Source: Chloroflexota bacterium (GTDB lineage: Bacteria; Chloroflexota; Anaerolineae; Caldilineales; Caldilineaceae). Taken from it: a stretch of DNA of 13,487 bases. The DNA is taken from assembly GCA_003577005.1 (NCBI GenBank), contig QEUW01000239.1, forward strand, positions 1 through 13,487, read 5' to 3'. The notes below the pieces were generated by a model that saw only the letters and a list, made by a program, of their open reading frames with translations, ran no database searches and was not told where the DNA came from. Positions within the stretch are counted from its first letter, which is position 1, and each line of letters begins with the position of its first letter. Below, one piece after another: positions 1 to 13,350 of the stretch. The translations under genes were made by a program, and so were the position numbers.

Positions 1-274
1 CAGGGGGGCCGGTCTACGCTAAGATGGAGACGGACAGGCACCGTTTGCTCACCAGCAACCGTCGTCCACCGAGGGCAGTCTGCGCACACAGGCTGCTCTC
101 TTTTGTTGGCTCGCCGGGGGTCGCTCCTGGCCTGCTGGTGAGCCCGCCCGGGGGGAGGCTGCTGCACCCCAGCGGGGCGAGGATCGGACCCTCAAGCGCA
201 TCGCTACATTATTGACCTCCTTTCACCCAGGCGGGATAGCTGTTCGCCTCAACGATAGTGCGGATCGAACTCTC

Positions 275-302
275 CGCAATCTGCGCATGATTTTCATCGT
301 TG
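275..302 (+). repeat. Dispersed repeat fragment, copy A
   Basis: This stretch, beginning CGCAATCTGCG and ending GATTTTCATCGTTG, is nearly the same as 491-519: it differs by a one-base gap and a few substitutions. The two copies lie about 215 bases apart in the same orientation. Function unknown. It may be a decayed remnant of an intergenic repeat family. Confidence 0.55.
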
Positions 303-490
303 TCTGTGGGCTCAGCCCATGAAAACTGTTCTGCCCGCATGGTCATAAGCTTATCGAGCCGGCCGGTTGAGCGCATCGGTCAATTGACGCAGAATAGATT
401 ACGATCCGGTTACGAACCTGACACGCAGGCTGTTCTGAAAATAGACCGCGGATTGGGCGGATTTCCGCGGATTCAAATCTGCGTGATCTG

Positions 491-519
491 CGCAATCTGC
501 GGATTGATTTTCATTGTTC
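491..519 (+). repeat. Dispersed repeat fragment, copy B
   Basis: Same-orientation relative of 275-302 (CGCAATCTGCGGATTGATTTTC core). The flank to its left (452-490) repeats GCGGATT and ATCTGCG words several times. With the inverted relative at 561-595 it could form an imperfect stem around a GC-rich loop of about 40 bases. Confidence 0.55.
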
Positions 520-560
520 GGCGCCAGAGGGCCCCCGACCCGGTTCATGATGACTGCTGT

Positions 561-595
561 GAAAATCGTACACAGATTGCACAGATTTCACGGAT
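561..595 (-). repeat. Dispersed repeat fragment, copy C (inverted)
   Basis: Read on the minus strand this gives ATCCGTGAAATCTGTGCAAT followed by CTGTGTACGATTTTC, an imperfect relative of 470-510. Copies B and C therefore face each other. More diverged than A against B, so the assignment is moderate. Confidence 0.45.
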
Positions 596-731
596 AAAAG
601 CTGGACGTCCGTGTTTGTCCTGAAAACCCGTGTACAATTTTCGTCGTTGAGCGGTTGGCGTTGTCCACGACGTCTGCGTCGGGGCGCCCGGTGGGTGGGA
701 TTGACCCGTCGCCAATCGTCGCAATCGTTGT

Positions 732-751
732 GTTACGAATACGTTACGAAT
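732..751 (+). promoter_or_regulatory. Direct repeat GTTACGAAT x2, possible protein-binding site
   Basis: GTTACGAAT occurs at 732-740 and again at 743-751, an 11-base period that would put both copies on the same face of the helix. A further GTTACGAA lies at 409-416. The pair ends 85 bases before the -35 box of the promoter at 837, a plausible place for an activator site. No known regulator is matched. Coincidence is possible. Confidence 0.3.
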
Positions 752-836
752 CAGAAGGAAGCTGGCGCGAACAGCCAATGGTCTCCCCACCCCCTGTGGT
801 TTTTGATGCCGGCCTGTTCTTGATCGGTACTTGAAG

Positions 837-865
837 TTGACAGGTTGGCTGTCTCGGGCTATAGT
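837..865 (+). promoter_or_regulatory. Sigma-70-type promoter for the STAND/WD40 regulator
   Basis: A perfect -35 hexamer TTGACA (837-842) is followed after 17 bases by TATAGT (860-865), five of six matches to the -10 consensus. Transcription would begin near 872, leaving a leader of about 170 bases before the ATG at 1043. The leader is AT-rich at its start and shows no obvious riboswitch or terminator. A ribosome site AGAGGG (1029-1034) lies 8 bases before the ATG. Confidence 0.7.
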
Positions 866-1042
866 TTACAATATATTTGGTTATCTGTTACTCTCTAGTT
901 ACGCTCCGCAATCGCGCCTGGCCTGGCTGCTGGCCGCAAAAACATCTTCCAGCATCTACACTCTATCGTCTAAACTGTATCGTCGCCGACATGAATCTTC
1001 ATTGCTTGACGCCGGATTCCAATCGTCCAGAGGGTCTTACCA

Positions 1043-1819
1043 ATGCCTACGCTCAAACTCTATCTTCTCAATGGCTTCTCTGCCGAGCTTGATGGGAAGC
1101 CGCTCACAGCGTTTCGGTCAGACCGGGTGCGCGCGCTGCTGGCCTATCTGGCGGTGGAAGGGCAGCGCCCCCATCCTCGTAGCCATTTGGCAGAACTGCT
1201 GTGGAGCGGATATGCTCCTGTGAGCGCACGCACCAGCCTGCGCGTGGCGCTCTCCAATCTGCGCCAGGTGCTTAGCCCGCTCAATCTGCTCCAGGTCTCC
1301 TTTCGCACCCTCCTGCTGCATACAAATCATCCCTACTTTTGGTGTGATGCTCTGGCGCTCGAGGCGGAGGGCAACGGTGAGCCAGCGACGGGTGAAGCCT
1401 GGTTGTTGCAAGCCAGACCGGAGTTGTTTTTAGCGGGGCTGGAAGGGATCGATAGCGGCCCCTTTCAGGTGTGGCTCCGCGAGCGCAGGGCATATTACCG
1501 GGAGTTGATCACCCGGCGGCAAACCCAGGGGGTGTTGCCGGCGCCGCCTCCGCCTGACCCGGTCATGCCATCCGGCACCGCCGAACCGGCACCAGCAGGC
1601 GAGCCAGGGGAGACACTGGCGCCGACGGTGGAAGCGTTCTACGGTCGCCACAACGAACTCGACCAATTGCGGCGCTGGATCCTCGCCACTTCGTCCAGAC
1701 GCTGGAGCACAGCGTTGGTGCGCAGCCAGGGCAACAAACGGGGGGCACAGGAACACAACCCACCGGTGGGACGCCGGTGCAGCGCCCCTTGGCCCGAATT
1801 CTCTGGCGCTCGCTGTTGA
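1043..1819 (+). CDS. Winged-helix (OmpR/BTAD-like) N-terminal part of a split STAND-WD40 regulator
   Basis: This is the 5' part of a large regulator. Residues 1-95 look like the DNA-binding head of SARP/BTAD-type regulators: a beta start (LKLYLLNGFSAELDGKPL), then RSDRVRALLAYLAVEG and a recognition-helix region ARTSLRVALSNLRQVL. Residues 95-155 resemble a shortened BTAD-like linker (HPYFWCDALALEAEG and FLAGLEGIDSGPFQVWLRERR). A proline-rich hinge follows (166-190), then FYGRHNELDQLRRWIL (199-214), the usual entry to a STAND NTPase. After residue 214 the frame becomes arginine/serine-rich nonsense and stops, while the NTPase continues one frame away in the next entry. No frame between 1630 and 1800 encodes the Walker A loop. 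The start has a good ribosome site. The DNA-binding role is family knowledge; the target is unknown. I read the tail beyond about position 1684 as out of frame. Confidence 0.75.
   Translation: MPTLKLYLLNGFSAELDGKPLTAFRSDRVRALLAYLAVEGQRPHPRSHLAELLWSGYAPVSARTSLRVALSNLRQVLSPLNLLQVSFRTLLLHTNHPYFWCDALALEAEGNGEPATGEAWLLQARPELFLAGLEGIDSGPFQVWLRERRAYYRELITRRQTQGVLPAPPPPDPVMPSGTAEPAPAGEPGETLAPTVEAFYGRHNELDQLRRWILATSSRRWSTALVRSQGNKRGAQEHNPPVGRRCSAPWPEFSGARC
1677..1690 (+). other. Frame-change junction: probable deletion removing the Walker A loop
   Basis: Coding sense leaves frame 2 after ...LRRWIL (to about 1684) and resumes in frame 1 with RHFVQTLEHS (from 1684), which reads as the helix normally placed just after a GxGGxGKT loop. 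The loop and its preceding strand, roughly 20 residues, are absent from all three forward frames. A deletion of 3n+1 bases explains both the frame change and the loss. The junction includes a GGATCC hexamer (1677-1682); I attach no meaning to it. Confidence 0.6.
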
Positions 1820-4800
1820 ATGCGCCACCCTTGAGCGAAGTCCTAGGTGACTGGCTCCGGGTGCTTTCTAACCAGCAGGTGGTCGAGTTGCCCCCCAGCC
1901 TTGACCAGCAATTCGCCCTGTTGCTTGGCTATCTCCGGCGCCAGCGCTGTCTGTTGGTGTTGGACAATGTCGAGAGTATCATGAGCATCGGCGAGCGGGC
2001 CGGCCAGTACCGCTCTGGCTACGAGGACTATGGGCAACTGCTGCAGCGCATCGCCGAGTATGACCATCAGAGCTGTCTATTGCTCACCAGCCGGGAAGAG
2101 CCTTATACTTTGAAGCGGTTGGAGATTGGCGCATCGGCTGTCCGGTCGCTCCGGCTGGGCGGGTTGGCGGTGCAGGTCGGCCAGGCCCTGTTGCGTGATA
2201 TTGGCGTCACCGGCAGTATAGAGGCGAGTAGCGAGGTCGTACACCGGTACTCTGGCAATCCACTGGCGCTCAAGCTGGTGGCGGCAACGATCACCGAGTT
2301 GTTTGCCGGCGATATTGCACAGTTTTTGTCGCAGGAAGCGCTGGTCTTCGACGATATTCGCGATGTGCTCGACCAGCACTTTGCCCGTCTCTCGCCCTTG
2401 GAACGGGAGGTGATGAACTGGTTGGCCATCGAACGCGAACCCCTGCCCTTCGCTGCATTGTATGACGACCTGGTGCAATCCCCCTCGCGCCGGGTAGTGT
2501 TGGAGGCGCTCCGCTCGTTGCACCGCCGCTCCTTGCTGGAGCGGAACGGCGAACGTCTCAGCTTGCAGAACGTTGTGCTCGAATACACCACCGACCACCT
2601 GGTGGAACATATTCGCCACGAGTTGGCCGATTTTGGTGTGGGGGACAGCGAATCCAAAATCCAAAATCCCCAATCTAAAATCACAGACTCCCGTCTCAAC
2701 CGTTTCGCCCTGGTCAAGGCGCAGGCGAAAGAGTATGTGCGCGAGAGCCAGGTGCGGATGCTGTTGCAGCCCGTTGCCAATTTTTTGTCCGGGCATTGGG
2801 GCAAAGAGGTGGTGGCGAAGCGGCTGCAAGATATCCTCCATCGCCTGCGGGCGGAAGCGCCCCTGGCGCCGGGCTATGCGGCGGCCAATATTCTGCATCT
2901 TTTGCTCCAGCTGCAGGTAGACCTACGTGGCTATAACTTTTCCCGGCTGGCGGTCTGGCAGGCTGACCTGCGCGAGTCACGTCTACCCCAAGTCAATTTC
3001 TCCCAGGCGGACTTGACTCACTCAACCTTTATCGAGCCGTTTGAGACGATTCGTGCCTTGGCATTTAGCCCCAACGGGCTCCGGTTGGTCGGCGGCGCCT
3101 ACAATGGCAACCTCCACGTGTGGCGCCTGGTGGACCATCAGCCGGAGTGGCTGCTACAAGGTCACCGGGGAGTCGTCTATTCTGTGGCGTGGAGCCCGGA
3201 TGGCCGGCTTTTGGCCAGCGCCAGTGCTGATCAGACTGCCCGGCTGTGGGATCTGGCAACCGGCGAACTCTGCTGTATCCTACGCGGACACGGCAGCGAT
3301 GTAGTGCTGGTTGCCTTTGATGCAACCGGAGAGTTGCTCATCAGCATGGGTCAGGATGGCGTCACCCGTACCTGGGAAGTGCGCACATTGCTCAACAATA
3401 CGGTATGCGACCAGCCGTATACATTTTTGGGAGGAACCCCTATGCCTATGTACCAGGCTGCCGCCAGCAGAGATGGGGCGTGGGTGGCCGCCGGTGGCGA
3501 TGACAGGATCGTACGTTGTTGGGACGTGCGGGACGGCCACCTGCGCGCCAGCTTGCAAGGACATACGCATGCGGTTACACGCCTGGCCTTTAGCCCCGAC
3601 GGCAAAACCCTGGCCAGCAGCAGCCTTGATCGGACGATCCGCCTCTGGATGCTTGCTGACCAGGCGCAGACCGCTGACCTATACCAACCGGGCCACATCT
3701 TGCCGGAACAGGCTGAGCAATTGGCCTTCAGTCCGGATGGGGCAGTGCTGGCCAGCGGCTACTTCAAACAAATCAACCTGTGGGAGATGGGGGAGCCCAC
3801 AGGGCGCGGCAAACTACGCCAGCGCCTGACCGGCCACAGCGGCAGGCTTTCGGCGCTGGCCTTCAGCCCCGATGGCGCCACCCTGGCCAGCGCCAGTTAC
3901 GACCAGACGGTCCAGTTATGGAATGTGCAGATAGGGCAGGCAGAGCACAAATTGTACGGCCAAGCCAGGGCGGTTGAACTCGTCCGCTTCAGCCCCGATG
4001 GCGCTACGCTGGTCAGCACCCACTTTGACCATACGGTTCACCTGTGGACGCAAGATGGCCGCCATCTTCACGCTTTGCACGGGCACCAGGACGTAGTGCG
4101 CCACGTCGCTTTTAGCCCGCCGCTCGCAGGCGCCCGCCCCCTGCTGGCCACGGGTGGCAGTGAGACAATCGTTCGCATATGGGACATGCACAGCGGTGAG
4201 AACCGTTTTAGCTTGCGCCGGCACGCCATCAGTGTAAATTCACTTGTCTTTAGACCCTCTGAGGAAAAAAACGGCTTCACGCTAGTCAGCGGCGGTGCGG
4301 ATGCGATGGTCTACCGGTGGGATGCAGCTACGGGTGAGCCGTTCGATGCGTTAGCAGGACACAGCAGTCAAATCAAGTGGATCACCTTCAACCCCGCAGG
4401 CGCGCTCCTTGCCACCGGCAGCGGCGATCAAACAACGCGCATCTGGGAGATGCCGTCTGGCCGGCTGCGACATGTCTTGCAGGAGCACACGGGTATGGTT
4501 CGCTATGTCGCCTTCCATCCCAATGGCCGGTTGTTGGCCACTGCAAGCGACGACACAACCGTTTGCCTGTGGGATGCCGTCGAGGGCCGGGTTTGCCAGA
4601 CCCTCCAAGGGCATACGCACGCGGTGATCAACACGCAGTTCACCCTCGACGGAAAAACCCTGATCAGCGTCAGTGATGACCAAACGGTGCGGGTATGGTC
4701 GGTTGATGCGGCGACCGGAATGTACCAACCCGCGCATGTCTTGCCCGCATCCGTTTACAAGCACAACTGTGTGGCCCTTAGCCCCGATAGCATCACGCTG

Positions 4801-5103
4801 GTCAGCGGCGGCATGGATGGGGTCGTGCGCTTGTGGGATCTCCAAACCGGCCAGGTGCGCCACACACTGCACGGCCATACCAATCTGATCACCGGTGTCG
4901 ATGTCAGCCCGGATGGCCGCCAGATCCTGAGCGGCTGTAGCAATGGCATGGTGAAACTCTGGGATGCGCAGAGTGGCCAATGTCTGCATACCCTCCAGCC
5001 CGAGGGCCCCTACGTCGGTATGAACATCACCGGCGTCACCGGCATCAGCGAGACGCAGAAGGCGGCGCTCGTGGCGTTAGGGGCAGTCACCGATGGAGAA
5101 TAA
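1777..5103 (+). CDS. STAND NTPase remainder with pentapeptide-like stretch and 15 WD40 repeats (C-terminal part of the split regulator)
   Basis: Numbered from the GTG at 1777, residues 7-30 (ARILWRSLLNAPPLSEVLGDWL) fit a STAND NTPase just past its P-loop. Walker B is RCLLVLDNVES (57-67), a sensor-like TSRE lies at 104-107 and the GxP motif is SGNPLALKL (159-167). A winged-helix-like section reaches about 285. Residues 381-420 carry pentapeptide-like ADL/NFS steps, and WD40 repeats run from 422 to about 1075; I count 15, enough for two propellers. The tail GMNITGVTGISETQKAALVALGA is a familiar ending for this protein class. In such proteins the propeller senses a partner or ligand and the NTPase switches the N-terminal effector. 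The frame is open upstream to 1510, but GTG 1777 is its first ATG/GTG/TTG codon; it is probably not a natural start, since the true N-terminus is the entry at 1043. Without Walker A the switch is probably dead. Confidence 0.8.
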   Translation: MQRPLARILWRSLLNAPPLSEVLGDWLRVLSNQQVVELPPSLDQQFALLLGYLRRQRCLLVLDNVESIMSIGERAGQYRSGYEDYGQLLQRIAEYDHQSCLLLTSREEPYTLKRLEIGASAVRSLRLGGLAVQVGQALLRDIGVTGSIEASSEVVHRYSGNPLALKLVAATITELFAGDIAQFLSQEALVFDDIRDVLDQHFARLSPLEREVMNWLAIEREPLPFAALYDDLVQSPSRRVVLEALRSLHRRSLLERNGERLSLQNVVLEYTTDHLVEHIRHELADFGVGDSESKIQNPQSKITDSRLNRFALVKAQAKEYVRESQVRMLLQPVANFLSGHWGKEVVAKRLQDILHRLRAEAPLAPGYAAANILHLLLQLQVDLRGYNFSRLAVWQADLRESRLPQVNFSQADLTHSTFIEPFETIRALAFSPNGLRLVGGAYNGNLHVWRLVDHQPEWLLQGHRGVVYSVAWSPDGRLLASASADQTARLWDLATGELCCILRGHGSDVVLVAFDATGELLISMGQDGVTRTWEVRTLLNNTVCDQPYTFLGGTPMPMYQAAASRDGAWVAAGGDDRIVRCWDVRDGHLRASLQGHTHAVTRLAFSPDGKTLASSSLDRTIRLWMLADQAQTADLYQPGHILPEQAEQLAFSPDGAVLASGYFKQINLWEMGEPTGRGKLRQRLTGHSGRLSALAFSPDGATLASASYDQTVQLWNVQIGQAEHKLYGQARAVELVRFSPDGATLVSTHFDHTVHLWTQDGRHLHALHGHQDVVRHVAFSPPLAGARPLLATGGSETIVRIWDMHSGENRFSLRRHAISVNSLVFRPSEEKNGFTLVSGGADAMVYRWDAATGEPFDALAGHSSQIKWITFNPAGALLATGSGDQTTRIWEMPSGRLRHVLQEHTGMVRYVAFHPNGRLLATASDDTTVCLWDAVEGRVCQTLQGHTHAVINTQFTLDGKTLISVSDDQTVRVWSVDAATGMYQPAHVLPASVYKHNCVALSPDSITLVSGGMDGVVRLWDLQTGQVRHTLHGHTNLITGVDVSPDGRQILSGCSNGMVKLWDAQSGQCLHTLQPEGPYVGMNITGVTGISETQKAALVALGAVTDGE
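2653..2680 (+). repeat. Heptamer microsatellite inside the STAND coding region
   Basis: Four 7-base units stand in a row: TCCAAAA, TCCAAAA, TCCCCAA, TCTAAAA. They encode SKIQNPQSKI (residues 293-302), a low-complexity insert between the winged-helix region and the next helical segment. The reading frame is kept. Similar heptamer repeats are known from cyanobacteria and, in my experience, other filamentous bacteria. Confidence 0.7.
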
Positions 5104-6046
5104 CCTATCTATGGCACAAACAATCCAACCGTGGGAACTGCTTTCCCCAGACAGCACCTGGCGCGGCTGGTGGCAGCCGCCGATTGAGGGCATCCCGGCC
5201 TTGCCGGTGTTGGCGGCAAGGGGGCGGCGGGATGGCCCCACCGTACTCGTCACCGGCGCCGTCCACGGCGATGAGTATGAGGGGCCGGCGGCCATCCATG
5301 CGCTCTTCAACAATCTGGACCTCTCCGAGTTGGCCGGGCGGGTCATCGGCCTGCCGGTGGTCAATGTGGCGGCGTGGCAGGCCCATGCGCGCACCTCGCC
5401 CGTTGATGGCATCGACTTGAATCGCGTCTTCCCCGGAACAGACGACGCCGGTGCGGAGCCCAGCCGGCAGTTGGCCCGAGCGGTGTTCGAGCACTTTGTG
5501 CGCCCGTGCGATGTCCTCATCGACCTACACAGCGGTGGGGCCAGACTGGTGCATCTCCCTATGGTCGGCTGGTATGCTGGGGACGCCGAAGCCGAACGGC
5601 TGGCCCGGCGTTTTGGCGAGGGCCTCATGCCCTGGCTGATCCCCGACGTGCCCGGTGTGCTCTCATCCGAAGCCCACCAGGCCGGCAAGATCGCCATCGG
5701 CGCTGAGTATGGCGGCGGCGCCCGGCTGGACCCCGGTGGCGTGGCCGCGTACACGGCCGGGCTGCGCCGCCTACTGGCTCTCCTGGCCGGCGAGGAGCCG
5801 GAACCGGCGGCGCCAGATACACGCCGGCCAATTGCCGGCAGCTATCAGACTGGTGAGCAGGGCGGGCTCTTTGTCGCTAATGTTAACCTAGGCGACCATG
5901 TGACACCGGCGACGGTGCTGGGGCAACTCTATAACCTGTTGGGTGAATCCGTAGGCGGAGTGATGGCTGAGCGGGCCGGCATTGTGGCGGCGCTGGCCCA
6001 TCGGGCGCTGCTGGGGCCGGGTGATCGGGTGGCTTATATCGGATGA
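5093..6046 (+). CDS. AstE/aspartoacylase-like M14 zinc hydrolase
   Basis: A 317-residue protein of the succinylglutamate desuccinylase/aspartoacylase family, cytoplasmic zinc enzymes that remove acyl groups from amino acids or small peptides. Zinc ligands are visible as HGDE (H58, E61) and DLHSGG (H146). GIDLNRVFPG (106-115) gives the substrate-binding Asn-Arg, and E205 in AEYGGG is the likely general base. Residues 250-317 form the small C-terminal beta domain usual for the family. The true substrate cannot be read from sequence; the closest styles are AstE-like and DoeB-like deacylases. The first ATG (5093) overlaps the WD40 stop by 11 bases; a second ATG at 5111, with GGAG 12 bases upstream, gives a 311-residue form beginning MAQTIQPWE and may be the real start. 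The overlap suggests translational coupling with the regulator. Its 3' end overlaps the convergent anti-sigma gene by 13 bases. Confidence 0.85.
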   Translation: MENNLSMAQTIQPWELLSPDSTWRGWWQPPIEGIPALPVLAARGRRDGPTVLVTGAVHGDEYEGPAAIHALFNNLDLSELAGRVIGLPVVNVAAWQAHARTSPVDGIDLNRVFPGTDDAGAEPSRQLARAVFEHFVRPCDVLIDLHSGGARLVHLPMVGWYAGDAEAERLARRFGEGLMPWLIPDVPGVLSSEAHQAGKIAIGAEYGGGARLDPGGVAAYTAGLRRLLALLAGEEPEPAAPDTRRPIAGSYQTGEQGGLFVANVNLGDHVTPATVLGQLYNLLGESVGGVMAERAGIVAALAHRALLGPGDRVAYIG

Positions 6047-6345
6047 ACGGGCGGTTTATGAGAATGACCAGACTCGGTGCTGTCGCGCTGTTGCCAGGCG
6101 TGGAAGACTGCCAGGAGCGCAGCCTGTTCAGCTTGAGAAAGCGTTGCGGGCGCCAGCTTGCCGACCAGCGCGATGGTCTGCCGCATCTGCTCTAGATAGA
6201 AGCGGCAACCTTGACAGCGCGCCAGGTGGGCTTCAAAGCGAGCCCGCGGTGCTGGTGGCAGTGTGCCCTCCAGATAATCAGTGATCAGCTGCACCAATTC
6301 CTGGCAGGTGAGTTCATCGGGTTGGGTAGCAGGTTCTTTAGCCAT
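6034..6345 (-). CDS. Soluble zinc-binding anti-sigma factor (ZAS, RsrA/ChrR-like)
   Basis: A 103-residue protein starting MAKEPATQPDELTCQEL. It has C14, then H40-x3-C44-x2-C47 (HLARCQGC), the zinc anti-sigma signature. The spacing C14-x25-H-x3-C-x2-C equals that of the thiol sensor RsrA (C11, H37, C41, C44). No membrane segment is present, so it should be cytoplasmic and could release its sigma factor on thiol oxidation. It lies just downstream of the ECF sigma gene on the same strand, as expected for a cognate pair. The frame stays open upstream to a GTG at 6474 that overlaps the sigma stop, but that extension (43 residues) is encoded by the palindromic repeats and looks non-native. The ATG at 6345 has no clear ribosome site, so its translation may depend on coupling or on the hairpin. 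The 3' end overlaps the convergent hydrolase gene tail to tail. Confidence 0.8.
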   Translation of the reverse strand: MAKEPATQPDELTCQELVQLITDYLEGTLPPAPRARFEAHLARCQGCRFYLEQMRQTIALVGKLAPATLSQAEQAALLAVFHAWQQRDSTESGHSHKPPVHPI

Positions 6346-6360
6346 AGAGCTGTCAAGTTG

Positions 6361-6393
6361 TCTGTAGGGCAAGATGGCATCTTGCCCTACAGA
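6361..6393. repeat. 33-base near-perfect palindrome between sigma and anti-sigma genes
   Basis: Arms TCTGTAGGGCAAGATG (6361-6376) and CATCTTGCCCTACAGA (6378-6393) are exact inverted copies around one central G, giving a 16-bp arm. In the minus-strand transcript the structure ends 15 bases before the anti-sigma ATG, so it sits in the translation start region. There is no T-run on either side to make it a standard terminator. It may be a REP-like mobile palindrome or an RNA processing/attenuation element. Confidence 0.85.
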
Positions 6394-6428
6394 TCGCCAT
6401 TGCTGTAGCGCCCTCTTTGATTGGCGAG

Positions 6429-6457
6429 TGTGGGGAAGATGCCATCTTGCCCTACAG
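6429..6457. repeat. Second, decayed copy of the sigma/anti-sigma palindrome
   Basis: The right arm CATCTTGCCCTACAG (6443-6457) matches the first copy exactly. The left arm TGTGGGGAAGATG (6429-6441) carries a substitution and a one-base loss, and the centre is C in place of G. It sits right next to the end of the sigma gene (stop at 6461). Two copies about 65 bases apart fill nearly the whole gap. Confidence 0.75.
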
Positions 6458-6460
6458 GCG

Positions 6461-7147
6461 TCAATGGGGCACACCGCCCAGATACTGTTCGAGTGCGCAA
6501 CGTACCTTGGAGCGGGCCCGGTGAAGCAAGACGCGCTGGTTGGCTTCGGTGAGATGCAGCGTGGCGCAGGTTTCTTCGACGGAGCATCCTTCCAGGTCGC
6601 GCAAGGTGATCACCGCCCGTTGGCCGGCGGGTAGGTTGGCGATTGCCTGCCGTACACAACTCTCTAACTCTTTTGCCAGCACTTGCTGCTCCGGCGTCGT
6701 TCCCCATGAGCGCGGGGGATAGAGCCAGTGACCGGGGCGGTCGTGGCTCGGTGTCTCAAACCTGGCGCCGGGCACCGCCTCCTCTTGCTCCTCTGCCTCT
6801 GCCCCATACCAGTCGGAGAAGGCGATTGTGCGGCCTTCACGTTTGGCGTACGTCCGAGCGCGATTCGCCACAATCGCAAAGAGCCACGCTCGCAGTGATG
6901 CCCGGCCCTCGAAATGGCGCAACCCTTGCAAGACCGCCATCCACGTCTCCTGCACCACCTCCTCAGCCACTTCAGCGGCGTTGACGTACCGCAAGGCCAT
7001 CGCTTGCATTGCCGTGTAATACTTCCGCACCAGGGCCAGGTAGGCCTCCTCGTCGTGGTTGAGCAACGCCTGGATCAACCGTCCATCCTCGCACCTGGTA
7101 TCTGCAGCCGGGTCTACATCGTCGGCGAGCTGAACTGTGCTCAGCAT
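6461..7147 (-). CDS. ECF-family RNA polymerase sigma factor
   Basis: A 228-residue sigma-70 family protein with only regions 2 and 4, as in extracytoplasmic-function sigma factors. Region 2 spans about 24-105 (LIQALLNHDEEAYLALVRKY, then VVQETWMAVLQGLRHFEG and RAWLFAIVANRARTYAKRE). Region 4 spans about 160-222 (LPAGQRAVITLRDLEGCSVE and the helix-turn-helix TEANQRVLLHRARSKV). The linker between them, about 106-158, is longer than usual and Glu/Pro-rich. The ATG at 7147 is chosen because the protein starts there in ECF style and AAGGA lies about 12 bases upstream; the frame is open further to 7306 but that part lacks family character. It heads an operon with the zinc anti-sigma gene downstream, so it is probably held inactive by it. 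The exact ECF subgroup and target promoters are not known. The divergent secreted-protein genes are candidate targets. Confidence 0.88.
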   Translation of the reverse strand: MLSTVQLADDVDPAADTRCEDGRLIQALLNHDEEAYLALVRKYYTAMQAMALRYVNAAEVAEEVVQETWMAVLQGLRHFEGRASLRAWLFAIVANRARTYAKREGRTIAFSDWYGAEAEEQEEAVPGARFETPSHDRPGHWLYPPRSWGTTPEQQVLAKELESCVRQAIANLPAGQRAVITLRDLEGCSVEETCATLHLTEANQRVLLHRARSKVRCALEQYLGGVPH

Positions 7148-7506
7148 AGGCGACCGTTTCCTTCCTGTCCATCCACGAGACCGCTCTGCGCGTAGGATTG
7201 TTGGCGCGTCTACAGCATAGCGGATTGGGCGGCCAACCGGCACCGGACGATTACCTAAACCGGTCTGTGTATTTCTCCCTACCTCCGTACAACCGTTCTC
7301 GTGCATTTCTGCTCAACTTTTTTGCCGCTACCAGTGGTGAGCCATTTTTTGCTCTGTAACAGATCGGTCGTTGGCGATACATAAACCGCAGGCACGTTGA
7401 TACACTGTAGCCGTAACCTGCGTCTGGTCGACCAACAATCGTTCGGTGTTTTCGGCGCTTTTGGCTCATCAAGTAGATACGACTCACACACGAAAGGAAC
7501 AACCTC
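7148..7506. other. Divergent control region between the sigma operon and the secreted-protein genes
   Basis: About 360 bases with no supported gene. Short open frames on the minus strand here are basic and lack family character. It must hold promoters for both directions, but no near-consensus sigma-70 pair stands out, which would fit ECF-type control. TGATACACTGT (7398-7408) recurs at 11853-11863 upstream of the Usp gene. A ribosome site AAAGGA lies 9 bases before the ATG at 7507. Confidence 0.5.
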
Positions 7507-8721
7507 ATGCAATCAAAGATGCAACCGGGCAACAATAGGACACCAGACTGGTGGGTACGCCGGCTGGGCGTCCTGACTCTCGTCTGTGCGCTGGTGGCGA
7601 CAGGCCTCCTGGGGCGCGGCGCCTTGCAGGCTCAAGAGAGTATGTCGAGTTATGTGCGCCACCGCTTTGACTTCTACCAGCCAGCACCGGCGGCGGTTGC
7701 AGCCTACTTTCCCTACGCCTACGAAAGCAAGCAGATTCTGAAGTCGGCCATTATCGACGAAGAAGCGAGCACCGTCACGCTGCCTCTCTATCGGGGGCAG
7801 ATGCGGGACGGGCGCACCGTCTGGTATGTGCTTACCGATGTTTCCGACCCGGGTATTGCCGAGGCAGCTGGACTCAACTACTCACCCAAGCTGCGCAATG
7901 TCTCCGGCAAGGCTGCCCGTACCGCCACGTTGGAGACTGACGGCACTTTGACCTTTGACCAGGGCACCGTCGATTTCTCACCCGAACGAGTGGTCGTGCC
8001 GGGCGAGGCGCCCAACTTCTTTCCGCCCGCCGAGGTGCAGGCCGGCTCTATTGGTGATGCCGATTACACCCCGCTGGTGCGGGTGACCAATGCCGGCAAT
8101 GTGGTTTACAACGCTACCGTAGTGGCCTTTGATGTCGAAGCCGACGATATCGAATTTCCCGACGGCGACGTCGATTACAGCAAAGTCATCGACCGCGCCG
8201 TCGCCATTTCGCCGGAACAGGGCACCGTCACCTTCCTGGTCACGCTGGGCGCCGCCGATGGCCGGCCCGTGCTCTTTATCAGCCTGGACTCGAACGACAA
8301 TCTGGTCTCGGCGTTGGAGGCCACCACCTATGCGCCGGCGCTGAGCGACATCCCGGTGGGGCTGAATGACACCCCCAACAGCGCCGTCTCGGTCAACTAC
8401 ATCATCACCAATGGACCGACCGGGGCGGATAACCCGCAGAAACAGGGGCTCAACAGCGCCCTGAGCGACCCCGGCGCCCAATTGCTCGACATCTTCGACG
8501 GCGCCCCCGGCGTGCTCAACGGCGAAGCCTATAGCCCCATGTGGGATCTCTACGTGGCTTCCTGGACAGACGAGGCCATCGACAACGGCTATCGCTCGGC
8601 GATCTACAGCGAGTTGCAGTTTCTCGGCCTGGTAGAGAAGGGCTGGATCACGGCGCCCGACGGCGGGCCGGTGGGTCCGAGTGGTCTGATCTCCAACTGC
8701 CCATTGCTGATGTCGTACTGA
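7507..8721 (+). CDS. Secreted protein of unknown function (possible DUF7482-type)
   Basis: A 404-residue exported protein. A positively charged start (WWVRRL) is followed by a hydrophobic core at about 19-36 and a likely signal-peptidase site near A42 (LQA before QES); no lipobox cysteine or anchor is seen. The mature part is acidic and beta-rich. Notable words are YTPLVRVTNAGNVVYNATVV, DVDYSKVIDRAVAISPEQGTV and NGPTGADNPQKQGLNSALSD (from residue 302), then YSPMWDLYVASWTDEAIDNG. These remind me of an uncharacterised family seen in haloarchaea and actinobacteria (possibly DUF7482), but I cannot verify that here. No catalytic motif is evident. The ATG has AAAGGA upstream. It is followed 13 bases later by a 25-bp hairpin and then by another secreted-protein gene, so the two may form an operon. 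It lies divergent to the ECF sigma gene and could be part of its regulon. Confidence 0.75.
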   Translation: MQSKMQPGNNRTPDWWVRRLGVLTLVCALVATGLLGRGALQAQESMSSYVRHRFDFYQPAPAAVAAYFPYAYESKQILKSAIIDEEASTVTLPLYRGQMRDGRTVWYVLTDVSDPGIAEAAGLNYSPKLRNVSGKAARTATLETDGTLTFDQGTVDFSPERVVVPGEAPNFFPPAEVQAGSIGDADYTPLVRVTNAGNVVYNATVVAFDVEADDIEFPDGDVDYSKVIDRAVAISPEQGTVTFLVTLGAADGRPVLFISLDSNDNLVSALEATTYAPALSDIPVGLNDTPNSAVSVNYIITNGPTGADNPQKQGLNSALSDPGAQLLDIFDGAPGVLNGEAYSPMWDLYVASWTDEAIDNGYRSAIYSELQFLGLVEKGWITAPDGGPVGPSGLISNCPLLMSY

Positions 8722-8733
8722 TTCCGATAGTGA

Positions 8734-8794
8734 AACCTCCCCAATCTCCTCCAATCTCTAAGAATTCAGGAGATTGGAGGAGATTGGGGAGGTT
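8734..8794. repeat. Long hairpin: 25-bp perfect inverted repeat, 11-base loop
   Basis: Arms at 8734-8758 (AACCTCCCCAATCTCC...) and 8770-8794 (...GGAGATTGGGGAGGTT) are exact inverted copies around an 11-base loop TAAGAATTCAG. Each arm itself contains a duplicated word, CCAATCTCCT/CCAATCTC. It begins 13 bases after the stop of the upstream gene and lies 55 bases before the next ATG. There is no following T-run, so a classical terminator is unlikely; it could protect the upstream message or lower read-through. Confidence 0.9.
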
Positions 8795-8849
8795 GCCAGA
8801 TTCGTGTTGTACCGTTATCACTGTTACAGAACAGACAAGGAGAAAGCTC

Positions 8850-10124
8850 ATGTTCCGTCGAATTTTGCTGACATTGATCATCCTGGTGTTGGGGCTGGGC
8901 GTGGCGGTGCCATCGTTCGCTCAAAGCCAGAACTTCACCGACCTACCGGGGAACAGCGACATGGCCCACATGAACGGCGCCTCCGGTGCGGTCTTTGTGG
9001 CAACGAATTCATACGATGAGGTGCGCGGCAACGAAGTGGTGATGTATCGCCGCGCGGCGAACGGTCTGCTCACGCTGGTGGGGCGTTTCCCCACGGGCGG
9101 GCAGGGTTCCGGCCCCGGCACCCGTTTCCGCGCCGATGGGCTAGGTTCGGCCAATTCCGTTGTGCTGAGCAAGAACAACCAGTGGCTTTTCGCCGTCAAT
9201 GGGGGCGACGACAGCGTCTCGGTCTTCCGCGTTCATGAACATGGTCTGGAACTGCGCGACCATGTCTACTCGGGCGGCATCTTCCCCAATAGCGTCACCG
9301 TGCGCAACAACCTGGTCTATGTGCTCAACGCTGCCAACGAGGGGAACATCACCGGCTTCCGTATGGACGGCCAGGGCAAGCTGACGCCAATCGACGGCTC
9401 GACACGAACGATCGACGCCAACCAGACCTTCCCGCCCGATGCGCTCTTCAACCCTGCCGGCATCAGCTTTACGCCGGACGGACGTCAGCTTGTCGTCACC
9501 ATCAAAGATGGCCCGGCCATTCCCGAAGCAACGGGCAAGGGTCGCATCCTCGTCTTCAATCTGGATAACAGGGGTCTGCCGGGCGTCGCACCGGTGGTCT
9601 ACGAGGGCAACAACAATGGTCCCTTTGGCTTCGACTTTGACAAGCGTGGCAACCTATTGGTGGCCGATTTTGTCGGCGGGCCGGAGCTGACCGGTGCGGC
9701 CTCCTCCTACAAGATCAACCCGGACGGCAGCCTGACTGTGATCAGCAACAACGTGGCCGATGGGCAGATCGATACCTGCTGGCTGGTGACCAATGGCAAA
9801 TATGCCTACGGCTCCAATTTTGGCACCGACAACATTTCGAGTTGGGTGGTGGGTGACGACGGCAGCCTGACACTCCTGGCCGCTGAGGCAGCTCACACCG
9901 ACGAAGAGATTACCTTCCCGTTGGACCTGGCCGTGACGCCCAACGGGAAGTTCCTCTATCTGGTGCAGCCGGGCAACGGCAAGGTTGGCATGTGGGCGAT
10001 CAACGACGATGGCAGCCTCACCAGCCTGGGCGCCGCCACCGGCCTCGAACCCACGGCGGACAGCGAGCCACCGGCTTACTTTACCCACCTGGGTGGCAGC
10101 CCGGCCGGTATCGCGGCGTATTAG
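8850..10124 (+). CDS. Secreted lactonase-fold beta-propeller protein (6-phosphogluconolactonase-like)
   Basis: A 424-residue exported protein. The signal peptide is clear: MFRRILLTLIILVLGLGVAV followed by PSFA, with cleavage likely before QSQNF. The mature part shows propeller blades of the YVTN/lactonase type: NSVVLSKNNQWLFAVNGGDD, SVSVFRVHEHGLEL, NPAGISFTPDGRQLVVTIKD, GRILVFNLDNRGL, LDLAVTPNGKFLYLVQPGNG and VGMWAINDDGSLTSLG. In cytoplasmic relatives this fold hydrolyses 6-phosphogluconolactone; export makes that substrate unlikely, and the activity here is open. The ATG at 8850 is preceded by AAGGAG with 7 bases of spacing. The frame is open far upstream, but that part lies across the hairpin and the previous gene and is not native. 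Likely co-expressed with the secreted protein before it. The stop is followed by a 21-bp hairpin before the convergent sthA gene. Confidence 0.85.
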   Translation: MFRRILLTLIILVLGLGVAVPSFAQSQNFTDLPGNSDMAHMNGASGAVFVATNSYDEVRGNEVVMYRRAANGLLTLVGRFPTGGQGSGPGTRFRADGLGSANSVVLSKNNQWLFAVNGGDDSVSVFRVHEHGLELRDHVYSGGIFPNSVTVRNNLVYVLNAANEGNITGFRMDGQGKLTPIDGSTRTIDANQTFPPDALFNPAGISFTPDGRQLVVTIKDGPAIPEATGKGRILVFNLDNRGLPGVAPVVYEGNNNGPFGFDFDKRGNLLVADFVGGPELTGAASSYKINPDGSLTVISNNVADGQIDTCWLVTNGKYAYGSNFGTDNISSWVVGDDGSLTLLAAEAAHTDEEITFPLDLAVTPNGKFLYLVQPGNGKVGMWAINDDGSLTSLGAATGLEPTADSEPPAYFTHLGGSPAGIAAY

Positions 10125-10146
10125 AGTAGCGTCGAAGCAAAAAACG

Positions 10147-10159
10147 AGGAGGTGTGATG
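10147..10159 (+). promoter_or_regulatory. Consensus ribosome site plus ATG leading into a hairpin, apparent orphan start
   Basis: AGGAGG (10147-10152) stands 4 bases before ATG (10157), but the frame that follows (10157-10282, 41 codons) is encoded by the hairpin and then by the antisense of sthA. Its product, [15 protein letters not shown]..., looks like no protein. This reads as a leftover translation start of a lost gene, or as a chance site. Confidence 0.4.
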
Positions 10160-10162
10160 GTG

Positions 10163-10215
10163 GACGATAGACGGTGGACGATAGTCCAATGGTTTATCGT
10201 CCACCGTCTATCGTC
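10163..10215. repeat. Hairpin between convergent genes: 21-bp perfect inverted repeat, 11-base loop
   Basis: Arms at 10163-10183 (GACGATAGACGGTGGACGATA) and 10195-10215 are exact inverted copies around an 11-base loop. The left side holds the duplicated word TGGACGATAG (10161-10170 and 10175-10184). It lies 38 bases after the lactonase stop and 24 bases before the sthA stop, so it could end or stabilise both messages. No T-run follows in either direction. Confidence 0.88.
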
Positions 10216-10239
10216 AGAGAACATTTGCGCCCGCCCCTC

Positions 10240-11607
10240 TCACCGCACCCGGTTCAGCCCATTGAGCGCCGCCACGCGGTAGGCTTCGGCCATAGTAGGA
10301 TAGTTGAAGGTCGTGTTGACAAAGTAGAGCAGCGTGTTCGCCTCCCCCTTCTGCGCCATGATGGCCTGGCCAATGTGGATGATCTCTGACGCCTGGGCGC
10401 CAAAGCAGTGGATGCCCAAAATTTGCAGCGTTTCCCGGTGGAAGAGAATCTTCAGCATCCCCGTGGTTCGCCCCGTGATCTGGGCGCGCGCCAGGCTGCG
10501 AAAATAGGAATGGCCTACCTCGTAGGGGATCTTTTGCGCCGTCAACTCCCGCTCGGTGGCGCCCAGCGAGCTGATCTCGGGGATAGTGTAGATGCCGGTA
10601 GGGATCTGTGAGACCAGTTTGATGTTGCATTCGCCCGTGACAATGTGGATGGCGGCAAAGCGGCCCTGGTCATAGGCAGCGCTGGCGAGGCTGGGGAAGC
10701 CGATCACATCACCCACGGCATAGATGTGGGGCTGGGCCGATTGATAATTGTCGTTGACAACGATGTTGCCCCGGCTGTCACGCTCGATGCCCAATTCCTC
10801 CAGCCCCATGTTGTCCGAGTTGCCCGTGCGACCATTGGCCCAGAGCAGGTAATCCGACCGGATCTGCTTTTTGGATTTGAGATAGAGCGTCACCCCAGTC
10901 TCGTCGGCCTCGACGCGTTCATACTCCTCGTTGTGGCGGATGAGCACGCCGTTGACGCTCAGGTGGTAGCTGAGCGCATCGATGATCTCATCGTCCAAAA
11001 AAGAGAGCAGCCGGTCACGGGTGTTGACTAGGTTGACTTTGATGCGCAACCCGCGGAAAATAGAAGCATATTCGCAGCCGACGACGCCAGCGCCGTATAT
11101 GGTGAGCGAGCGGGGAGAGGTTGTCAGCCGGAGCACGGTGTCACTGTCAAGAATGCGCGGGTGGGTAAAATCCACATCAGGTGGGTGGTAGGGCCGGGCG
11201 CCGGTGGCAATGATAAAGGCGCTGGCGCGATACCGCCGTTTGGCGCCCGTACTGGCAGTTACTTCCATGGTGTGCGGGTCGACAAAAACGGCCCTGCCGG
11301 TTAAGACATCCACATAGTTGCGTTCATAGAAGCCTGTCCGCAGGCTGACTTGTTGGCTAATCACCGATTCAGCACTCTTGAGAAGCGTTTGGAAATTGAC
11401 ACCGCGAAAGCTGCCACACTCTTCTAGCAGCTGGATAGTGTGGCGCAGTGCCTTGCTGGGGATGGTGGCGCTATGGGTGGCGCTGCCGCCAACGAGTGGG
11501 AATTCCTCGATCACTGCCACATGTTTTCCGGCCTTAGCCAGCCCCATGGCGGCGCCCTCGCCGCCTGGACCGCTGCCGATGACGATGACGTCATATTGAT
11601 CTGGCAT
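10240..11607 (-). CDS. sthA: Soluble pyridine nucleotide transhydrogenase
   Basis: A 455-residue FAD enzyme close to the usual SthA/UdhA length, which passes hydride between NADPH and NAD in the cytoplasm. Seen in order: FAD loop [10 protein letters not shown] (11-20), the family-typical TIPSKALRH (48-56), [11 protein letters not shown] (92-102), NAD loop [16 protein letters not shown] (171-186), second FAD contact [20 protein letters not shown] (295-314), [13 protein letters not shown] (335-347) and the C-terminal dimer signature [20 protein letters not shown] (430-449). The last two are almost word for word as in E. coli SthA, which argues against dihydrolipoamide dehydrogenase or mercuric reductase. 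The active-site stretch reads GGSATHSAT where E. coli has GGGCTHWGT, so even the single cysteine is gone. The ATG is preceded by GAAGGTG. It is divergent from the triple-Usp gene and convergent with the lactonase-fold gene. Confidence 0.92.
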
Positions 11608-12009
11608 ATCGCACCTTCATCGCTCGCGCAACCAAATTGTAACGCTATTTGGCTGTTCGTTTACCTGTTAGCCCCCGCACAGATTGTAAGATAGATTACA
11701 ATTGTGTCATTGTACTCTTGTTATACTAAGATTGCTCCTGGTTGTGTGCTGGCCCAGGTGCATCAGACTACGCCCTTTCCTGGCTGGGGCGACCAGGCTA
11801 ATACCGTTATACCTGTTTTTTGCCTTCGACGCTAATCTGCGCAGTGATAACGTGATACACTGTTGCGTAGATTCCCCATAAGGGTCAAAGGCAAAGCAGC
11901 TTCTACACTGGCTAGATGGCTGTTTTACCGGTTGTTTTGCGTACCACGTGGGATTTCAGCCGCGCCCCCTCCGCTGTCCACAGCCTGCTCATCCATATGG
12001 AGGTAAAAG
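11608..12009. other. Divergent control region between sthA and the Usp gene
   Basis: About 400 bases without a supported gene, AT-rich near the sthA side. It holds the candidate sthA promoter and operator described at 11683-11710. On the Usp side, TGATACACTGT at 11853-11863 repeats a word found at 7398-7408, but no proper -35 hexamer accompanies it. A strong ribosome site GGAGG (11999-12003) lies 6 bases before the Usp ATG. Confidence 0.55.
11683..11710 (-). promoter_or_regulatory. Candidate sthA promoter with overlapping ATTGTAA inverted repeat
   Basis: On the minus strand ATGACA (11710-11705) and TACAAT (11688-11683) are separated by 16 bases, each five of six to consensus. The -10 box lies inside the inverted repeat ATTGTAA (11683-11689), 6 bases, TTACAAT (11696-11702), a natural operator shape that would block the promoter when bound. 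A third ATTGTAA lies at 11636-11642, closer to the sthA start. The regulator is unknown. Confidence 0.45.
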
Positions 12010-13350
12010 ATGACCCGTCGCCGCATCGCCGTACTGCTCGAAATATCGGAAATCAGCGCCGAAATCCTACCCGTCGTCCGCCGTCTCTTCCCGCCCGACC
12101 AGGCCGAACTTACCCTGATCGCGGTGGCGCAGCGCAATCTCTCGCCCATGGTGACCGAGGCGTATCTGACCGGTATGCCCCCGTCGCTCTATGCTTCGCC
12201 AATCTACACTGAAGAAGAGTGGGAGGCCCATCTACGGGCCGTGCAAGACACCTTGCACCGGGTTGTAGTCGAATTGCGTACAGCCGGCTACGTGGTGCAA
12301 ACCGTCCTCCTCAAAGGCGAGAAGGTTCAGGCCATTGCCGATTATGTGGAAAATCGCTCGTTCGACCTGATCGCGATGGCCACCTATGGCCGCAAGGGGT
12401 TTAGCCGTCTGGTCTACGGCAGCGTGGCCGAGCGGCTGCTCCGCCTGGTCACGACGCCGATGTTGCTCTTTCGCCACCAGCCAGCTCCCGAAGGCGCGCC
12501 GGCCACGGCCGAACGCCAGGTTGCGCCAGCGCCCAAACCGGCCTTTACCGTCGTGGCGGCCAGCGACGGCGGGGGTCACAGCCTGGATGCCGTCCGGCTT
12601 GCCTGCAAAACGGCCCGTGCGCTCGATGCCCGTTGCACGATCCTGGTCATCGGTGATGAACGCGCCGGCATTGCAGCCGACCAGCAAATTATGAAAAAGG
12701 TAGCCGACGCAGTGCGGGAGTTCGAGCCGCACCCAGTGCTGATCCCACTCGTGGGGCCGGTCGATGAAGCGGTGAGCCGCTACTTGGAGGGTGAGCCAGC
12801 GGATCTGCTGGTGATCGGCGCTTTTAAGGACCGGGGCTCCGGCGATGTCTCAGCCATCGGAGAGACGGCGCACCGGCTCTTTGGCTACGCCCCCAAGTCG
12901 GTGCTCGTGGTCAAGGGTGAACCATCGATTCGCCACATGCTGGTTTGTGTCACCGACTACTCGACACCCCTATTGGATGATGCGCTCCAGTTTGCGCAGG
13001 CGCTCGACGCCCGCATCGAGGTCGCCTACGTTGCGCCACCCAAAAACGGTGCGGCGCCCCAGTGGCTGGACACCACATCCACCGACTTTGCCACCACCCT
13101 CGATGCCGACCGCCAACTGGCCGGCATCTGGCAGCGGATCCAGTCGCGCCTCAACGACCGCGGAGTCGCAGCCGAGGCGCTCCATCTCGGCTATGGCGAC
13201 CCGGTGACGGCCATTCTCCAGTTGGCGCAACGGCAACGGTATGACCTGCTGGTCACCGGTGCGCCAGGCGCCCAAGCCGACGTGGCCGGTAGTTTTGTCG
13301 ATGAACTGGCGCGACGTTCTCAACAGTCGGTGCTGGTGCTGCGTGCCTGA
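12010..13350 (+). CDS. Universal stress protein with three Usp domains in tandem
   Basis: A 446-residue cytoplasmic protein, about three times a single UspA domain. Domain 1 (about 3-157) ends in the nucleotide-binding pattern ATYGRKGFSRLVYGSVAERL (A124, G127, G137, S138), matching G-x2-G-x9-G-S with Ala for the first Gly, followed by TTPMLLFRH. A Pro/Ala linker (158-177) leads to domain 2 (about 178-304: FTVVAASDGGGHSLDAVRLA ... LLVIGAFKDRGSGDV ... SVLVVKGE) and domain 3 (about 306-446: MLVCVTDYSTPLLDDALQFA ... LLVTGAPGAQADV ... SVLVLRA). Domains 2 and 3 keep the fold words but have lost the full Gly pattern, so only domain 1 is a good ATP binder. Such proteins accumulate under stress, often without a known partner. 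The start is firm: GGAGG 6 bases upstream. A repeat hairpin begins 3 bases after the stop. Divergence from sthA hints at joint redox or stress control. Confidence 0.9.
   Translation: MTRRRIAVLLEISEISAEILPVVRRLFPPDQAELTLIAVAQRNLSPMVTEAYLTGMPPSLYASPIYTEEEWEAHLRAVQDTLHRVVVELRTAGYVVQTVLLKGEKVQAIADYVENRSFDLIAMATYGRKGFSRLVYGSVAERLLRLVTTPMLLFRHQPAPEGAPATAERQVAPAPKPAFTVVAASDGGGHSLDAVRLACKTARALDARCTILVIGDERAGIAADQQIMKKVADAVREFEPHPVLIPLVGPVDEAVSRYLEGEPADLLVIGAFKDRGSGDVSAIGETAHRLFGYAPKSVLVVKGEPSIRHMLVCVTDYSTPLLDDALQFAQALDARIEVAYVAPPKNGAAPQWLDTTSTDFATTLDADRQLAGIWQRIQSRLNDRGVAAEALHLGYGDPVTAILQLAQRQRYDLLVTGAPGAQADVAGSFVDELARRSQQSVLVLRA

Follow-up and report, generated by a model that had tools for sequence, protein, structure and literature searches.

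A split SARP-like/STAND/WD40 gene lacking its P-loop in a Chloroflexota bacterium

Introduction

STAND NTPases hold their nucleotide with a Walker A loop (P-loop), and the gene described here raises the question of how a member of this class came to lack the loop and to change reading frame at the same place. The gene lies in a stretch of 13,487 nucleotides (hereafter the window) from a Caldilineaceae-type Chloroflexota genome, which appears to be an entire contig, the record of its own protein giving a contig of the same length. A sequence-only reading of the window had proposed that one deletion removed the loop and shifted the frame, that the event was recent or an assembly fault, and that, if real, it left a sensor without a motor. 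We examined this proposal by comparison with relatives of the gene, with structural models of intact relatives and with the corresponding site in the closest genome compared.

Results

Organization of the split gene

All parts of the gene are located on the forward strand. Its first half is an open reading frame in frame 2 (1043–1819), which starts with ATG at 1043, stops with TGA at 1817–1819 and codes for 258 residues. A ribosome-site-like AGAGGG (1029–1034) is situated 8 nt upstream of the ATG, and a sigma-70-like promoter sequence, TTGACA-17-TATAGT, is present at 837–865 with 11 of 12 consensus positions matched; this is a consensus match only, in a region (600–5300) that holds five promoter-like sites against a mean of 1.2 in shuffled sequences. 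The first 214 residues (1043–1684) resemble the family, at 43–52% identity to 12 relatives, and comprise a putative SARP-like winged helix, a proline-rich linker and a segment running from FYGR to RRWIL, of which FYGRHNELDQLRRWIL (1637–1684) is the last family-like part. The Trans_reg_C match to the winged helix scores 20.9 bits, below the curated cut-off of 26.2, and the BTAD domain (PF03704) has no match at E 0.001 in 1043–1684, whereas it is present in many lower-ranked relatives among those listed. The remainder of the frame-2 reading frame (1685–1819) translates into an out-of-frame tail of 44 residues and the TGA.

Family likeness resumes in frame 1, which is free of stops between the one at 1555 and the one that ends the gene at 5103. 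Here RHFVQTLEHS starts at 1684 and LARILWRSLLNAPP at 1789, so that the frames, peptides and coordinates are as the sequence-only reading had given them. Alignment with relatives shows that 1684–1797 encodes what remains of helix 1, followed by a linker of low complexity. The rest of the STAND domain (1798–2757) is 67–75% identical to four relatives and retains the Walker-B-like LLVLDN, LLLTSRE and SGNPLAL at positions that are invariant in our alignment (A1). Positions 2962–5103 encode a short pentapeptide-like stretch, then 15 WD40 blades and finally the C-terminus, where the frame stops. The WD40 part matches PF00400 with 365 bits and is up to 73% identical to relatives; the 15 WD-type blade ends, a number also given earlier together with the retained motifs, were counted by eye among 19 W-centred strings; the other four were excluded as not being blade ends. 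Because both halves match the same gene family, chance resemblance is not an issue.

An in-frame AATCCAAAATC-type repeat in 2650–2690 gives SKIQNPQSKI inside the STAND part, and SKIQN-like strings are also present in the proteins P0004 and P0079. A non-coding repeat, ATCTGCGCAATCTGCGGAT, is located upstream of the gene at 478–504; with up to two mismatches it occurs at nine places in the closest genome compared (G001, Caldilineaceae bacterium CHL12) against none for the reversed control.

Size and position of the lesion

The earlier observation that no forward frame holds a GKT in 1678–1800 extends to the whole window, as the pattern GxxxxGK[ST] is absent from all six frames of its 13,487 bases. 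This rules out a P-loop moved or inverted elsewhere in the window. At E 0.001, none of the P-loop NTPase families of Pfam matches the window, whereas P0004 matches four. In the closest relatives a tryptophan is followed by 12 residues, GMGGQGK[ST], about four further residues and then the stretch that matches frame 1; the spacing between tryptophan and P-loop is 12 residues in 100 of 103 pattern-fitting relatives and 16 in the other three. From this tryptophan to the residue aligned with the histidine of the window, relatives have 24 residues (72 nt), whereas at the deletion junction of the window (1679–1689) only 8 nt separate the W codon (1676–1678) from the His codon (1687–1689). By comparison with relatives, therefore, 64 nt are missing, which is 3 × 21 + 1, and a single event of this size explains both the loss of the P-loop and the frame change. 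The proposed deletion of 3n+1 bases, about 60–70 in length, agrees with this comparison.

The missing part corresponds to residues 38–59 of the intact relative P0021. In the model of P0021 (mean pLDDT 88.2) it covers a strand (residues 43–47), the loop and the start of a helix (54–70), and the model of the STAND part of L002 (mean pLDDT 75.7) has the same layout, with the strand at 32–36 and the helix at 43–59. Judged on these models of intact relatives, the lesion would have removed the P-loop together with the core strand before it (strand 1) and the beginning of the helix after it (helix 1). All 50 rows of the first fold search fell in the WD40 part and were uninformative on the STAND part, so a second model was made, and the search then returned a STAND fold for the model of an intact relative. 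A PDB sequence search with the STAND part of P0004 gave no match at E 0.01. STAND ATPases of known structure, namely 6mfv (STAND-TPR), chain C of the maltose-system entry 8bob, which we take to be MalT, and Apaf-1, are 16–20% identical; compared with these, the window copy is without the nucleotide-holding elements, namely the strand, the loop and the first part of the helix. In relatives, the linker that follows the P-loop helix (1684–1797 in the window) spans 5 to 58 residues, and the frame change of another family locus, L008, falls in it.

Presence of the P-loop in relatives

DNA relatives were gathered at E 1e-60 and, in a further search of 396 genomes drawn from a larger class, at E 1e-90. 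Merging duplicates by a 100-nt signature reduced 67 loci to 58 distinct places including the window, and three loci with fewer than 40 bases upstream (L016, L017 and L050) were left out of the P-loop count. The motif is present in 54 of the 54 testable places, although in L008 and L054 its frame differs from that of the rest of the domain. At protein level, 7,996 candidates were scored, and the best 120 of 3,352 matches consist of the window's own record and 119 relatives. Five of these (P0015, P0017, P0031, P0052 and P0119) begin after the P-loop, and the loop is found in 112 of the 114 testable proteins among these best matches: 111 fit the pattern and P0036, with the variant ALGGMGKS, was counted as intact. 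The two exceptions are P0029, which reads GIGGQGMTT with the Walker A lysine changed to methionine, and P0063, whose P-loop stretch is out of frame between in-frame parts. A family that normally lacks the loop is ruled out by the absence of any loop-less copy among the 54 DNA places, with P0029 and P0063 as the protein exceptions. By alignment, intact homologues carry the loop, and the outcome named earlier as refuting the proposal, intact homologues without it, was not observed; the earlier statement that it is always there stands for the testable DNA places and needs softening for the proteins.

The records of P0015 and P0017 begin just past the P-loop, although in both cases the contig exceeds the gene in length; they may represent additional split copies or fragments at contig ends. 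No relative was found among 96 stretches of viral contigs, and Rfam gave no match at gathering scores. Among the papers listed by literature searches, none on the SARP-like/STAND/WD40 subfamily was noticed, which does not prove that such work is lacking.

Genomic site and neighbouring genes

By Pfam, the seven other genes of the window are AstE, zf-HC2, sigma70, DUF7482, lactonase, Pyr_redox and Usp, with no MoxR or vWA gene among them. G001 has related neighbours on contig C624 (locus L077), with Pyr_redox 92% and AstE 83% identical, and the three of the seven neighbours that were compared (AstE, Pyr_redox and Usp) align nearly full length and in one frame. Across 5093–13350 of the window the order of these three genes is kept, and the window is longer by about 4.2 kb between AstE and Pyr_redox, where it carries an anti-sigma-like zf-HC2 gene, an ECF sigma gene, DUF7482 and the lactonase. 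Homology ends at 5111, close to where AstE starts, and gives way to unrelated sequence, so that the STAND gene is absent from this site in G001 and a syntenic intact copy there was rejected. A 27-codon tblastx match between L077 and the antisense strand of 1717–1797 was taken as chance.

Broken and mosaic copies in the family

The STAND part has 14 matches in G001; one gene (C544) accounts for two of these and contains two stops and a second frame. A place was counted as broken when its best local match showed a stop or a second frame (66 of 77 loci). On this definition, the STAND stretch is interrupted by a stop or a change of frame at five of 57 other places (L008, L017, L030, L035 and L054), which may include assembly faults or contig-end effects. 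These copies resemble the window in the broken STAND part; unlike it, L008, L030, L035 and L054 still encode the P-loop, and L017 is cut by a contig end. P0029 and P0063 share with the window an altered P-loop. Broken copies are not rare in the SARP-like/STAND/WD40 family, and the split copy is not remarkable, since the family is multi-copy, five of 57 other places are broken and the gene is absent from the site in G001.

P0004 and P0012 are 92–100% identical over the first 160 residues and 97–100% around the loop (241–400) but mostly below 60% in the propellers, whereas P0007 and P0014 are mostly 20–60% identical in front and 77–100% behind residue 604. Both pairs appear as paralogue mosaics, as if recombination had swapped sensor and engine. 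In fungal NLRs such domains have been described to reassort, and noncanonical P-loops are mentioned as well (PMC4986451). A dead copy is expected in such a mosaic multi-copy family.

Discussion

Intact Chloroflexota SARP-like/STAND/WD40 proteins (P0004, P0005, P0007, P0009, L001 and L002) have the same order of parts as the window; they differ from it in having a P-loop and one open frame, and the window has neither. As the relatives do have the loop, the split copy is, as far as sequence comparison can tell, broken as an ATP switch. With its frame broken and an essential motif lost relative to intact relatives, it reads as a pseudogene.

Whether the lesion belongs to the organism or to its assembly is a matter of judgement. 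The organism's gene may be intact and the contig may skip 64 bases where the P-loop should be, in a stretch that several paralogues of one genome have in conserved form, and we regard this as a possibility of some weight, though not the probable one. The lesion is seen in one contig and in one cluster member, a fault and a true deletion predict identical sequence, the family is multi-copy, and the remainder of the gene is free of stops. The related contig L001 has a coverage of about 4.8, and frame changes are present at other public loci of the family, some of which may themselves be faults (coverage of L008 is 1.8). Against this, no direct repeat in 1–3100, in a search that covers the remaining bases only, accounts for the junction, either as the site of a misassembly or of a repeat-mediated deletion, and the three neighbours compared align nearly full length and in one frame with G001. 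Nor do the two halves look as if they derived from different paralogues: the identity of the STAND part exceeds that of the N-terminal part by 18.7 points on average in the window and by 14.6 points in 66 other pairs (sd 7.9, range −10 to 33), and GC3 is alike on the two sides of the junction (0.71 upstream; 0.71, 0.75 and 0.71 downstream). With an identity gap inside the family range, nothing speaks for a chimera of two paralogues, which we rejected.

The split could also be real and functional, with the winged-helix fragment and a P-loop-less WD40 sensor kept separately as a decoy or dominant-negative partner of intact paralogues. Both halves are open and alike in GC3, the promoter-like site is kept, and precedents exist: the rice NLR Pb1 lacks a P-loop and has a proposed function (PMC3782705), and functions are proposed for the inactive iSTAND proteins of MoxR-vWA systems (PMC7159879). 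Like the window, these have a STAND-type domain without a working nucleotide grip; however, they are established proteins, whereas the window holds one copy whose frame is broken too, and the MoxR and vWA neighbours of the iSTAND systems have no counterpart among its genes. Translation of the second half could restart at GTG 1777 or at a TTGA overlap (TTG 1816 with TGA 1817–1819), but 1684–2100 offers no convincing start site: only GTG 1777 (GGGA) and CTG 2038 are preceded by a purine stretch, a short one, and the first ATG (1981) lies past the Walker-B-like motif. In addition, none of the 54 testable DNA relatives shares the loss, and loss of strand 1, going by the models of intact relatives, should disturb the fold. 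A restarted sensor would have to be translated although no convincing ribosome site precedes it, and to fold although its first strand is gone. We regard such a role as improbable; that the lesion is real and maintained as a two-gene decoy or dominant-negative derivative, a bacterial counterpart of P-loop-less plant NLRs, seems to us more improbable still.

We therefore favour, as the probable explanation in our judgement and ahead of an assembly fault, a natural deletion that recently struck a dispensable paralogue. The ancestor would have been an intact SARP-like winged-helix/STAND NTPase/WD40 gene of Caldilineaceae type, presumably an ATP-driven switch in which the WD40 propellers would act as the sensor and the winged helix would deliver the output. 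A single 64 bp deletion would then have shifted the frame and taken out the P-loop together with the first core strand and the beginning of the first helix. The image of a sensor without a motor is doubtful, since the frame change cut the propeller half off from the gene's start codon and ribosome site; the likely product is at most the 258-residue N-terminal fragment, without nucleotide binding and without the sensor, and the sensor half would barely be translated. The gene being one of many expendable copies, its loss could be tolerated. That the event is recent follows from the 1,353 codons without a further stop only if the sequence evolves neutrally: without selection, the probability of remaining stop-free falls from 26% at a neutral divergence of 1% to 6.9% at 2% divergence and 1.8% at 3%. 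A run of 4 kb with no further stop would be seen after a recent event and equally with no event.

A long open WD40 frame can thus be the orphaned tail of a switch, which calls for caution in reading such frames. The finding would gain importance if many cells carried this junction and selection acted on it. As it stands, the split gene appears as a further disabled member of a rapidly changing family of NLR-like genes in bacteria and fits the picture of such families losing and mixing copies.
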